Positions 48,607-53,431 of a DNA stretch of 64,000 nucleotides are shown here, piece by piece. The stretch comes from Alternaria dauci (lineage: Eukaryota; Ascomycota; Dothideomycetes; Pleosporales; Pleosporaceae). A program made the translations under genes and the position numbers. The notes below the pieces were generated by a model. The model saw only the letters and a list, made by a program, of their open reading frames with translations. It searched no databases and was not told where the DNA came from. Where the stretch lies: positions 2,356,001 to 2,420,000 of the forward strand of contig NC_091272.1 of the NCBI RefSeq assembly GCF_042100115.1, in the 5' to 3' direction. Position 1 is the stretch's first letter, and each line of letters begins with the position of its first letter.

Positions 48607-49378
48607 ACGTGCTGCGACTTGCTCGTGAGACCAATTTCAGTTATTCAGGGGCCCTTTTGTGCCCGACCATGAGACTAAGCTCCATAGTACCTCTAGCCTA
48701 CCTAAGTACCTCGGAGTACTCGTGCACTGCATACAAGAGGAAAATGAAACAAGTCTAGAGATGACAAGTCATGCCTTGCAGCCTACACAGCTTCTAAAAA
48801 CAAAAATTACAGAGACCAATAGCAGTACAGGCTTCTAGGTTTTGTGTTTCTATATACAAACCCCTAATATACGTTATTGTAGTAGGGCAAGATACTCATT
48901 GATTCCTGATCTCGATGAGACAGAGGAAACAACCATGCCAGAGCTTAGCGCGACCATTCATGGTGGACATCTCGTCTCCAAAGATCGGTCATGGGATTTG
49001 CTGTTCACGGGCCTGCATCGCGAAGTATATTAACCGGCTGCACGCAAACATACACTGCCAAGTACTGACTTCAGGCAATTGATCGCACAAAGCCATCTAT
49101 TTCGAAACACCATATATGAGTACCCAGAAAAATCGACGCATCCTTCCCACGATTGGCTGTGTCGTCCTGAAATGCAGGACTGCCGACAGCAGCCACCCAA
49201 CTTCGTAGAAAAGGCGTCCGGGGTGCATGTCGAGATCTCGGAGAACATCTGGCGATGGCTTGCATGTGGTGTGATCATATTACAGCCCAGTGACTGAGTT
49301 AGATGATATGGAGGCAAGGGCTTGGTCATGCTTGTATTCGGGCGGTAGGTAGAGTGTGGTCATGGGAGTGAAAAGAAG

Positions 49379-49386
49379 TATATAAG
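49379..49386 (+). promoter_or_regulatory. TATA box of the AA9 gene
   Basis: TATATAAG lies about 93 bp upstream of the ATG at 49479, a suitable place for an inducible secreted-enzyme gene. Confidence 0.6.
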
Positions 49387-49478
49387 AAAGAAGCATGACA
49401 CCCAGTGACAGCACTTCGAACGCAACTCGACACTTCTTCATTACCTTGAATAACTCTGGTGCCAACATTTCGCTCAAG

Positions 49479-50331
49479 ATGAAGCTCTTCGCTTTTGCCG
49501 TCGCCCTGTTGCCGACACTCGGATCAGCACATACGATCGCTCAGCGCGTCAGGATCAACGGCCAGGACTTTGGTCAAGGCAACGGTATCCGCGTTGCGCC
49601 TTCGAACAACCCCATCACGAACGTTAATGACGGTAACATTGCTTGCAATGCTGGCGCTTCTTCCTCCAGTAAGGTCATCGACGTCAAGCCCGGAGACAAG
49701 ATTGGTGTCAACTGGGGTCATGTAGTCGGCGGAGCACAGTATGTCCTTTTCGTCTCAATCTTTTCACCGATATGTTACTAACTTCCCCAAGATTCGCGAA
49801 CGATCCAGATCACCCGATAGCCAAGTCCCACAAGGGTCCAGCAATCTTCTATATGGCGAAAGTCTCAAACGCCGCATCCGCCTCCCCCTCCGGTCTCCAA
49901 TGGTTCAAAGTCTCTGAAGACGGCCTTGACAGCTCGGGAAACTGGGGTAAGAGATGCATCCGTATGAAATACACATGATACATGCACTGACTTTGTATGC
50001 GCACCTACTAGGCGTTGACCGAATGATAAACAATGGTGGATGGACAGAGATGACAATGCCGTCTTGTGTTGCGCCCGGCCAGTATCTTCTCAGGGCCGAG
50101 ATGATCGCATTGCATAGCGCTAGCACGACTGGTGGTGCGCAATTCTACATGGGCTGCGCGCAGATAAATGTCTCCGGATCAGGATCGAAGACTGGGAGTA
50201 CGGTCAGCTTCCCTGGTGCCTACAAGGCGGATGATGCAGGGATCAAGCTCAGCATCTACAATGCTCAGGGTCAACCCAAAGGAAATGGAACGCCGTACAA
50301 GATTCCTGGGCCCGCGAAGCTGCAGTGTTAG
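49479..50331 (+). CDS. AA9 lytic polysaccharide monooxygenase (formerly GH61)
   Basis: Exons 49479-49738, 49792-49946 and 50012-50331 give 244 aa. The copper enzyme oxidatively cleaves cellulose or related glucans outside the cell. Signal peptide cleavage after GSA (residue 17) exposes His18 (HTIAQRV), the N-terminal His of the copper brace. The second His is in [12 protein letters not shown] and the axial Tyr in [10 protein letters not shown], with the preceding Gln-type proton network partly visible. Cys pairs are present ([26 protein letters not shown] end). There is no CBM1 module; the chain stops right after the catalytic domain. The substrate cannot be told from this. A TATA box lies 93 bp upstream. 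Confidence 0.92.
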
Positions 50332-50973
50332 GACAATCTGAGGATAAGGGGTGGAATTCAGGAGAAGACGGGTTGGAGATAATGCTGGGACTGTTGGTAT
50401 AATGATTGTTGCTTACCGCCCTATTGTAGCCTTCCGGGAGGCATTTGGGCTGGTTTCGCGAGCATCTGTCTAGCTTTGTATGTATATACGGTAAAGGAAT
50501 GCGGAGGGAAACGCGCAGGTGACCGAGTAGTAATACCCAATTTACGTCGCCTGCCGAATAATTTGCGTTGTACATCCTTGATTGAACCTTGGAAGATTGC
50601 GGTACCTTGAAAGACGAGACTTTACTTGCATACTGCAGCAGCTAGCGATAAGCGAGCCTAAGAAAATTAGTGGAAGAAAAAAGGGGGTGGTGTAAAGCCA
50701 ACAGTGTCCCATCTGCGCACTGTAAGGCAAATGCATGTGAATATGTGTACGTAGGCAGGCTTAACATCCGATACTTTACGACGATGAAAAAGCGACGCGA
50801 GGAGGCTATCAATAGCTTTCAATAGATCCTGTGAGTGGGCATTCTCAAACAGTCCGGCCAAGTTCGGCTTGTGTCCCGCCTGGGCCATATGTGCTGGCTG
50901 TCCCCACCAGTACCCAAATTTTATGGTGGATATAATATCATAAATGGCTGGTAATTTCATCAATCAAACACAA
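50332..50973. other. Intergenic region between the AA9 gene and tRNA-Ser
   Basis: 3' flank of the AA9 gene and 5' flank of the tRNA gene. The last ~60 bp are AT-rich. No other feature seen. Confidence 0.5.
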
Positions 50974-51010
50974 GGCGTGGTGCCAGAGTGGTTAATGGGT
51001 ATGACTCGAA

Positions 51011-51031
51011 AGGGCGAAAGCTCAAATAGAT
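51011..51031 (+). other. Canonical anticodon-loop intron of tRNA-Ser(CGA)
   Basis: 21 nt one base 3' of the anticodon, between positions 37 and 38, where the eukaryotic tRNA endonuclease cuts. Removing it leaves a seven-base loop, CTCGAAA. Confidence 0.85.
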
Positions 51032-51055
51032 ATCATATGCCTTCGGGCGCGCAGG

Positions 51056-51105
51056 GTAAGATATGCTTCCAACCACCTACAACCACCAATTACTAATGGT
51101 TCCAG
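51056..51105 (+). other. Spliceosomal-type intron in the T arm of tRNA-Ser(CGA)
   Basis: 50 nt starting GTAAGA, with a TACTAAT branch-like site about 10 nt before the terminal TTCCAG. Its exact removal joins GCAGG to TTCGAAT-CCTGC, making a perfect T stem and 7-nt loop. The length and motifs match the mRNA introns of this window. Its final G also keeps GTTCGAATCC of the B box intact in the unspliced gene. Confidence 0.75.
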
Positions 51106-51126
51106 TTCGAATCCTGCCCACGTCGC

Positions 51127-51135
51127 TTTCTTTTT
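51127..51135 (+). terminator. RNA polymerase III terminator of tRNA-Ser
   Basis: TTTCTTTTT starts two bases after the discriminator. A run of five T is enough for Pol III release, so the gene has an intact end. Confidence 0.8.
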
Positions 51136-52171
51136 GCTGTTTTTATGACCTCGGGGTGTTGTGTATTGCTTGGGGAGTCTTTTGGGAGGTTTTGGTTGAT
51201 TTTTGGTAGTGTGGCGGAACAGTGAAATTCTGAGCGCCAGAACAAATATTTAGACATATTCAAACCTGTCGCATCTTGATCGCCCTCGAATTCTATTTGT
51301 TATACCAATAATTACTTCTCGAGTTGGGGTGTTCAACAAGTATGATGGCATGGAGGCCAAAGGCGCGGAGGCCCCACTTTGTCGCATTCACCCAGTGCGC
51401 AACTTCAATCCTTAGGTATTTCTTAACACCCACCACAACCAACCCATGCTTCTCATACTCCATAATTTTAATGCGCATCACTCCTTCATCACACAAAGAT
51501 GCAGTGTTATGATAATCAAATCCCCTTAGAAGAGTCCATGGTCAACTCTCGCAAATCACGTTGCCATCCTCGAGATTGCAGGGACTAGGGCCTGCACTGC
51601 GAGCATACCTACCTATGCAGAACACGCAACCGTCGCATTTCCCTCCGCACCCTACTTTCCCGAAGTGGCTTCCTTGGCTGGGGCCAAGATGAGACCTTAG
51701 TTGCGAAATCCAAAGTCTCCATGTGGTCCACGCCCCTCCAGGTCTGCTTTGATCTATAGCATCTGGATTTTGCGGTCGCTGCCCAGGTGGGCATGGGCGC
51801 AGTGGTGATAACGGGCTTGCACGCTCTTACAGTGATCATCTGGAGGACACGAACATGTTCAATCCGTTTGCCCGATATCGGTGCGTAATGGCTCAGATCT
51901 AGATCCACGTCTCGCGGTAAGTCCAAGTGAGAGAGCAAACGGTAAGCGGGGGCGCGGTGAGTGGTAAGGCAGTCATTTACACGAAGTGAGACCCGTGCGG
52001 TATCTACTCAAGAGCCTATTTATTCCACCTTTCTGAACATCAAAATCCTAGAATCACGATTACTCTCTCGAGCACTGCGACGATTTGCCATCACAGCAAC
52101 TGCTCTTGAAGCAACAATACACTTCTCACCCTTGACTACCTAGGTACCCACCATCACTGTTTCCGCCTACC
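51136..52171. other. Intergenic region
   Basis: About 1 kb between the tRNA and the hypothetical gene at 52172. The ORF at 51609-51938 (minus) has random composition. Nothing recognised. Confidence 0.45.
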
Positions 52172-53431
52172 ATGCCCGGACCACCTGCATGGGTTTCCAA
52201 GTACATCAAGGACGTCGAACAACACGGACCGCTGCCTGTCGGGATCCACGTTGTCAAAGATGGAGACACCGCCCGGTACCAGATCATTGTCAACAATAAC
52301 CGTACCAGTTCCCTTCATCATCCTCTGTCTTCTGAAGGAAGGGAAGAGTGGAAGGATGTGATGTCAATGGCTAGAGAAGAGGAGGGCAGCAAGGCCGACT
52401 TTCCTGGTTGTGCTCACCCGCCACTCGTCTACAAGCCTGGTGAGTGGCTGTGGAAGAGGATGGATGGAAATGTTGTGACCATTATGATCCGCGCCTTGCA
52501 GATGTCGGGTATCAATGTTGCGACAGAGGACTTCCGCAACCAGAAGAACAAGGATGCAGGTATGTTGTGACCACGCAAAATACATATGAGACATGTACTG
52601 ACTTCAAATCTTCGCTTCTGCAGTCAAACAAATGGAGCTCAGCCACCAATCGCTCTATCACCCGTGCGATCGAGAAGTTCTGGCTACGTTCCAGGAAGAA
52701 CATAAGATATCTTGCTGGGCTCGTTGCTTTGGTAGAGGACTGGTCGTTGTCGCCCCTGAGTTCCACGCGAGCCGCCAAAACTTCGCAGCTCACTTAGAAC
52801 CCGATCCCAAAAACCGACCCGCAGTTCGTGCGCGGTACAGCACTGGATTCCAAGAAGAGTTTCGGCCAATCGTCCTTGGGTGTCTTCCAACCGGTATGAA
52901 TACCAGCGTATGGTTCTGCATGGAACCAGTCGAGGCTACGAAGAATGTCTTCGACAGTCTTTGGAAAGGGTATGATCAAACACATAGAACCATTCTAATG
53001 TACACATGACTAACCATGGCAGTTGCAACTGGGCCTAACAAGCTCCCAGGTTCGGTTACAAAGACACTGAACATTTCATTTGAGCTGCCGTCGCGATTCA
53101 ACGTTCGATTATGGTTGGTGCCTCTACATATGACGATCGTGTCTTAGGTGACGTCCTCAGGGAGTACGGACAGTATATCACGGCAGATGATGGCTATGGC
53201 CAACAGAACTTTCACTACGATCCTGGCAACGGTTCTCCCTCTTCTCCAACGCTTACCTTCCATGAGCTTACTCGGTGGATCATCGCTTCCGACGAGGAGA
53301 GTAGCGCAAAGCGTCACGCAAAGGCCTGGGATGAAGTCATCATGACCCGCGTTACCCATCGAGAGACTCCACGCCTCAGTGATTGGGACAAGTTCATCCA
53401 GGCAGCAGCAGCTGCGCAACTCAAGAAGTAG
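52172..53431 (+). CDS. Fungal hypothetical protein with disturbed 3' reading frame
   Basis: Exons 52172-52559 and 52624-52969 join in phase (GTATGT donor, CTGCAG acceptor) and encode ~244 coding-like residues, starting MPGPPAWVSKYIKDVEQHG and reaching KNVFDSLWKG. No family recognised and no signal or membrane segment. A good 53-nt intron (GTATGA, GACTAACC branch, GGCAG) ends at 53022, but the joined frame stops at once. Coding-like sequence continues in another frame (ATGPNKLPGSVTKTLNISFE, LPSRFNVRLWLVP) to about 53140, then in the first frame again (DVLREYGQYITADDGYGQQN to AAAAAQLKK and stop at 53431). An alternative acceptor at 53049 would give a 255-residue protein ending YKDTEHFI. The gene is probably real at its 5' end and shifted by two small indels, or misread, at its 3' end. 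Confidence 0.5.

Follow-up and report, generated by a model that had tools for sequence, protein, structure and literature searches.

Inserts resembling spliceosomal introns split the D and T arms of tRNA genes in Alternaria dauci

Textbooks describe nuclear tRNA introns as the tRNA-endonuclease type at position 37/38, and spliceosomal introns as a feature of Pol II RNA, a few cases such as U6 apart. We studied a tRNA-Ser(CGA) gene of the fungus Alternaria dauci that raises the question of whether one tRNA gene can carry an intron of each kind. The gene lies in a stretch of 64,000 nucleotides of contig NC_091272.1 (positions 2,356,001 to 2,420,000; hereafter the window), where its body spans positions 50974-51125 of the plus strand and is interrupted by a 21-nt anticodon-loop intron and by a 50-nt insert in the T arm, at 53/54 (Table 1). 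The first-pass annotation of the window had read the insert as a spliceosomal-type intron, GTAAGA...TACTAAT...CAG, and both this insert and the 21-nt intron were found exactly where it had placed them. We take the upstream TATA-like element to be a candidate TFIIIB site; many of the further split tRNA genes described below also have AT-rich elements upstream, as seen by eye and uncounted.

Table 1 Features of the tRNA-Ser(CGA) gene, in window coordinates
Feature	Position	Strand	Remark
TATA-like element TATAATAT	50931..50938	+	about 40 bases upstream of tRNA-Ser(CGA); read from the sequence
5' exon: tRNA positions 1-37, A box, anticodon CGA	50974..51010	+	
Canonical 21-nt anticodon-loop intron at 37/38, tRNA-endonuclease type	51011..51031	+	ARAGORN i(38,21) after removal of the T-arm insert
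Middle exon: 3' strand of the anticodon stem, variable arm, 5' strand of the T stem (GCAGG)	51032..51055	+	
50-nt spliceosomal-type intron, 53/54	51056..51105	+	16 other tRNA genes have inserts like it
5' splice site GTAAGA of the T-arm intron	51056-51061	+	
Branch TACTAAT of the T-arm intron	51091-51097	+	branch-type A at 51096
3' splice site CAG of the T-arm intron	51103-51105	+	
3' exon: T loop, 3' strands of T stem and acceptor stem, discriminator G	51106..51125	+	
T5 run, Pol III terminator-like	51131..51135	+	

The sequence of the window as it stands gave no gene call with a tRNA finder, and the Rfam RF00005 match to the locus, which covered exactly 50974-51125 with the insert included, scored 24 bits, the gathering score being 29 bits. 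Once the 50 nt were taken out, ARAGORN reported Ser(cga) with a 21-nt anticodon-loop intron. Removal of both introns left the predicted 81-nt tRNA-Ser, with G as discriminator and 20 of 20 checked stem pairs formed (G-U allowed). A comparison of 1114 distinct 47-53-nt deletions around the gene put the GT..AG removal first, without ties and with one equivalent placement 1 nt leftward. The likeness to mRNA introns claimed in the first pass held as well: nine mRNA introns of the window, hand-picked from 23 candidates in an ab initio list pre-filtered for splice motifs, were of similar size (43-63 nt) and showed similar signals (GTANG, CTRAY and YAG). An Rfam scan of positions 49000-53000 (E up to 1) for a group I or group II intron returned the tRNA only; inserts of 48-59 nt, the range observed in the assembly (see below), are too short for an intron of either group. 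We also searched the window for copies of the insert, as of an introner-like element, with three mismatches allowed, and found the insert itself only.

The T-arm insert of tRNA-Ser(CGA) is no chance event, as 16 further tRNA genes carried like inserts. The assembly (34.9 Mb in 10 contigs) contained in total 17 split tRNA genes with 11 anticodons for 8 amino acids, and 23 inserts, 13 in the T arm and 10 in the D arm; the 17 genes are a lower bound, the tRNA catalogue being incomplete. The best named hits of one protein of the window were to Alternaria (77% to A. arborescens and 70% to A. panax), which fits a host in this genus or close to it. A genome search with RF00005, in which 63 of 931 first-look candidates were scored, listed 60 matches, 17 of them in a mitochondrial-looking cluster at 3.344-3.399 Mb of contig C3. 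This dense cluster of mitochondrial-type tRNA genes (C3:3344209-3399162) lies close to the end of a large contig and looks like mitochondrial DNA that was assembled into the contig or inserted there. Three of the 43 matches elsewhere stood out as unusual: Arg-CCU (L054) and Ile-AAU (L055) had T-arm inserts of 50-odd nt, and Thr-UGU (L056), matched in its middle only, had an insert in the D arm. All three inserts read GTAAG...CTAA(C/T)...YAG, and their removal restored the cloverleaf. Pattern searches added Arg-UCG. They also revealed D-arm inserts in three Ser-GCU and four Gln genes, and T-loop inserts at 57/58 in Gly-GCC, in two Glu-CUC genes and in Lys-UUU; a second insert was then found in the T loop of the Gln genes and in the D arm of Lys-UUU. 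An exon-only Gln pattern (at most one mismatch) matched five places, i.e., the four known genes and a fifth that was also split twice. Each of the five Gln genes found was split twice, in the D arm and in the T loop, and each of the three Ser-GCU genes found had a D-arm insert, the exon-only Ser-GCU pattern giving no others. Arg-CCU and Ile-AAU were also present as unsplit copies. ARAGORN placed an endonuclease-type anticodon-loop intron in 13 of the 17 split genes as well.

Most of this set was found with patterns holding at least one splice motif, and the motif counts given below are therefore partly ascertained. No splice motif took part in the search that found Arg-CCU, Ile-AAU and Thr-UGU, nor in finding the Gln T introns, the Lys-UUU D intron and the two introns of the fifth Gln gene; all of these show the same splice signals, apart from the exceptions named below for Gln-UUG_e. 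The matches of four pattern searches compared with their reversed controls as 11 versus 17 (four tRNA genes among the matches), 21 versus 28 (the same four being the only tRNA genes seen), 17 versus 39 (eight tRNA genes) and 10 versus 8 (eight tRNA genes): it is the tRNA context, not pattern richness, that singles out the split genes. For the 21-match search, 10 other places were fetched, four were already in hand, and C1:2186961, C3:3082668 and C3:3082678 were left out. Places set aside were judged by eye, and further split tRNA genes may have been overlooked among them. An Rfam scan of 20 such places gave no match; this is uninformative, since the same scan also misses 12 split tRNA genes.

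Removal of the inserts had the same effect across the set as in tRNA-Ser(CGA). With introns allowed, ARAGORN detected none of the 17 split genes as they stand and all 17 without their inserts; it misread the anticodon of Arg-UCG and of one Ser-GCU gene after insert removal, as the anticodon-loop intron of these genes allows more than one placement. When all introns were removed, 339 of 340 stem pairs formed (acceptor, D 10-12/23-25, anticodon and T stems; G-U allowed), the sole failure being the A-C pair 12-23 in the D stem of Lys-UUU. Each removal was compared with about 870-1180 distinct deletions of near-equal length. For the 13 T-arm inserts, with roughly 930-1180 deletions each, no other deletion scored as high as the GT..AG removal in any case; for the D-arm inserts the GT/GC..AG removal was uniquely best in three of 10 and had 1-11 equal-scoring deletions in the other seven. 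Placement in the D arm is less certain, presumably on account of D-loop flexibility.

The 23 inserts were 48-59 nt long (median 52). Their ends were GT-AG in 21 and GC-AG in two, thus conforming in 23 of 23, although some search patterns required such ends. A branch motif, CTAAC in 17 and CTAAT in five inserts, lay 9-13 nt before the end (one search pattern required CTAAY); the insert in which no CTRAY could be seen by eye is the D intron of Gln-UUG_e, and the T intron of the same gene ends in AAG. The GC 5' splice site occurred in the D-arm introns of two of the three Ser-GCU genes, as GCAAGT and GCATGT (L120 and L126). One of these genes, L120 (C7:1601050-1601310), is followed a few bases on by an unsplit Ser(AGA) gene (C7:1601287-1601367), and the two may share one transcript. 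As far as can be judged from gene sequences, the inserts are very probably U2-type spliceosomal introns that would be removed from Pol III pre-tRNAs, a reading that gives strong support to the proposal of the first pass and extends it to 17 tRNA genes of the assembly. Against it count the ascertained motifs, the D-arm placement, the 12-23 mismatch of Lys-UUU, the oddities of Gln-UUG_e and the unsplit copies of Arg-CCU and Ile-AAU.

Could the inserts instead be ectopic introns that the tRNA endonuclease excises, their spliceosomal look being coincidental? The ectopic introns of the model for this reading, the red alga Cyanidioschyzon merolae, are reportedly removed by the endonuclease, and cleavage outside 37/38 would be expected to need a bulge-helix-bulge. 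We inspected the inserts in three placements for the 4-bp central helix of that structure. It was found in 0 of 23, the best result being three of the four pairs, in eight inserts; and we know of no role of GTANG, CTAAC or YAG signals in tRNA-endonuclease cleavage. Position speaks for the endonuclease in part. An excerpt of the C. merolae report (PMC9602550) describes several introns per tRNA in the D and T arms, with those of tRNA-Ile(UAU) at 12/13, 37/38 and 53/54, nearly the sites seen here, and states that little is known of how the ectopic ones are removed. The anticodon-loop introns of our split genes are likewise endonuclease-type by place. However, all 23 inserts lie at D- or T-arm sites, away from the canonical 37/38 location, and carry signals other than those of the canonical introns that 13 of the same genes contain; they also differ from the C. 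merolae introns, which we know by description and not by sequence, in having clear splice and branch signals and no bulge-helix-bulge. Archaeal noncanonical tRNA introns, which tRNAscan-SE 2.0 seeks in archaea, share the location outside the anticodon loop but are recognized by bulge-helix-bulge structure, according to an excerpt on that program (PMC8450103). Taken with these observations, cleavage of the inserts by the endonuclease is highly improbable.

The first-pass annotation had also left room for a tRNA pseudogene hit by an intron-like insertion; applied to the whole set, the split genes would then yield no tRNA. Such a gene would be recognized by broken stems together with an intact copy elsewhere, and an intact second tRNA-Ser(CGA) was accordingly looked for. 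The whole gene, used as a DNA query against the assembly, matched only itself, with no second copy and no mobile element shown. A pattern for the serine A box plus anticodon (at most three mismatches) matched 21 places, versus 14 in the reversed control, with the window gene as the only exact match. Judged by sequence, the tRNA genes among these places were the window gene, three Ser-AGA, two Ser-UGA and one Leu-CAA; C1:299406 was Leu-CAA-like and without a tRNA match when scanned. One of the remaining 13 places (L086) was scanned, with no match, and 12 were judged from their letters. A pattern with looser spacing matched nine places (control nine), of which only the window gene was tRNA-like by its letters, and another Ser-CGA pattern matched none, even the window gene being too long for it owing to the T-arm insert. 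By these patterns the window gene is the only Ser-CGA gene found, and copies departing further from them would escape.

The exons of the split genes point the same way. The bodies of the three Gln-CUG genes are identical, as are those of the three Ser-GCU and of the two Glu-CUC genes, and beside them the introns have diverged: 39-47 of 51-52 columns agree in the Gln-CUG D and T introns, 28-35 of 52-53 in the Ser-GCU D introns and 43 of 54 in the Glu T introns. The two Gln-UUG genes show four exon differences, which form two compensatory pairs, 6-67 and 27-43 (each C-G versus U-A), and in their introns 25 of 53 and 24 of 52 columns agree. Similarly, the split Ile-AAU gene differs from two unsplit copies (L017 and L018) in two T-stem pairs, both compensatory. 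To judge by these comparisons, identical or compensatory bodies next to diverged inserts would not be expected of pseudogenes. The stems of the window gene and nearly all those of the set are intact, no unsplit Ser-CGA, Ser-GCU or Gln gene was found, and every insert has GT/GC..AG ends. The unsplit copies of Arg-CCU and Ile-AAU would suit the pseudogene explanation. Weighing both sides, we regard it as the least probable of the readings considered here. The stretch at 50974-51125 is, in all likelihood and jointly with the general explanation favored above, a functional nuclear tRNA-Ser(CGA) gene whose T arm holds a U2-type spliceosomal intron in addition to an ordinary endonuclease intron.

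The remaining question was which polymerase would supply the transcript. Spliceosomal introns mostly belong to Pol II RNA, and the tRNAs might accordingly be processed from Pol II transcripts, in which case the spliceosome would act on its ordinary kind of substrate. We inspected the split genes for Pol III signals and found two type-2 gene features, the T-run terminator and the B box. A run of at least four T started within 40 bases downstream in 16 of the 17 genes, and in the 17th the fetched stretch ended first. As to the B box, the first-pass annotation had claimed that the last intron base keeps most of it in the DNA. This stood for introns at 52/53 or 53/54, which leave it almost whole in the 3' exon (in tRNA-Ser(CGA) it is whole, first base excepted, within 51106..51125), but not for introns at 57/58, which halve it. 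The T-loop half of the B box was unsplit in eight genes, six of them matching the textbook B-box core TTCRANTC and the others reading TTCGACCC (Ile-AAU) and TTCGATCC (Arg-UCG). The A box, read by eye only, was interrupted by the D-arm introns in 10 genes.

Where the B box was halved, an extra core was present. In seven of the nine genes split at 57/58, TTCRANTC occurred within the T intron, at intron base 22-26, near the middle, whereas dinucleotide shuffles predicted 0.35 of nine T introns with such a core. Gln-UUG_d had the extra core in its trailer, ahead of the T run, and Gln-UUG_e had its sole extra core in the D-arm intron, upstream of the A box, which would be an unusual position for TFIIIC. 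The extra core was thus found in the T intron or trailer of eight of nine genes with a split B box, and in the ectopic introns or trailer of none of eight with an unsplit one; counted anywhere, the comparison was 9/9 versus 0/8 (Fisher p 4e-5, the motif having been chosen after some introns had been viewed). These extra cores, placed where the normal B box is split, and the T runs make processing from Pol II transcripts very unlikely.

A spliceosome acting on a Pol III transcript has a precedent in the U6 snRNA of fission yeast, a fungal Pol III transcript with an mRNA-type intron, as stated in an excerpt of PMC10484740. U6 differs from the present case in being a component of the spliceosome itself, and its intron is thought there to stem from reverse splicing; here the hosts belong to many tRNA families, and some of them hold two such introns and most an endonuclease-type intron in addition. 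In the A. dauci assembly we found two full-length U6 matches of 100 nt, with no room for an intron, and the intron-less state of these genes also counts against our preferred explanation. There were five U6 matches (L061, L062, L063, L064): besides the two full-length ones, one of 61 nt lies beside a full-length one, one of 110 nt narrowly misses the cut-off, and the last is weak.

If the inserts are spliceosomal introns, the following order of events may be proposed. Pol III would transcribe the split genes by way of the A and B boxes and stop at the T run; the B box used would be intact, almost restored by the sequence at the junction, or replaced by a copy in intron or trailer. The spliceosome would excise the 48-59-nt introns of the D and T arms from the pre-tRNA, after which the tRNA would fold. 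The tRNA endonuclease and ligase would then take out the anticodon-loop intron, which probably goes last because the endonuclease measures the folded tRNA body. The anticodon intron of C. merolae is likewise removed last, in the account excerpted from PMC9602550, and the U6 intron shows that a Pol III transcript is open to the spliceosome (PMC10484740). All Gln genes found and genes of several other essential families are split, and the 57/58 introns mostly carry a B box; from such gene structures it appears likely that tRNA synthesis in this fungal lineage depends on the spliceosome. The codons of the split Gln, Ser-GCU and Ser-CGA genes are common in five ORFs of the window, where 205 of 4595 codons were CAA or CAG (Gln), 71 were AGC and 57 were TCG.

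Spliceosomal introns in Pol III RNA are already known from U6; as a class of tRNA intron they are, to our knowledge, undescribed. No report of spliceosomal introns in nuclear tRNA genes was among the matches listed from titles and abstract openings of open-licence PMC papers, and exact-phrase queries returned no paper in the same collection; an earlier report is possible in subscription papers or preprints. If our reading is right, one small RNA is processed by two unrelated splicing systems, translation is linked to splicing capacity, and essential tRNA families that need the spliceosome break both of the textbook rules given at the outset. One would then have to ask how a Pol III transcript, lacking a cap, is brought to the spliceosome before it folds, and intron gain into a structured RNA would have a natural test case. 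Gene finders that allow only anticodon-loop introns would overlook essential tRNAs of such fungi or annotate them wrongly; the Rfam tRNA model (E up to 1) found none of the 12 split genes tested.

As to where the introns came from, we can offer only the guess of reverse splicing or T-arm duplication, the latter of which would explain the B-box copy in the intron. Patterns for split Gln genes (genome and viral contigs), Glu genes (viral contigs) and Ser-GCU genes (genome contigs) gave no matches; these collections are non-fungal and thus uninformative on conservation. The T introns of Gly-GCC and Glu-CUC (L132, L133 and L134) resembled each other beyond the splice signals, with z scores of 6.2 and 4.2, which rank first and second among 229 cross-family pairs. 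They are the only clearly related introns across families, and their likeness suggests, as a guess, exchange or spread between tRNA families. Finally, downstream of the terminator run of Gln-CUG_c (L131, C8:593430-593560, minus strand) lies a near-complete second tRNA 3' end, GTTCGATTCCGGGCAAGA, which suggests a partial tandem duplication and is a possible source of an intronic B box.
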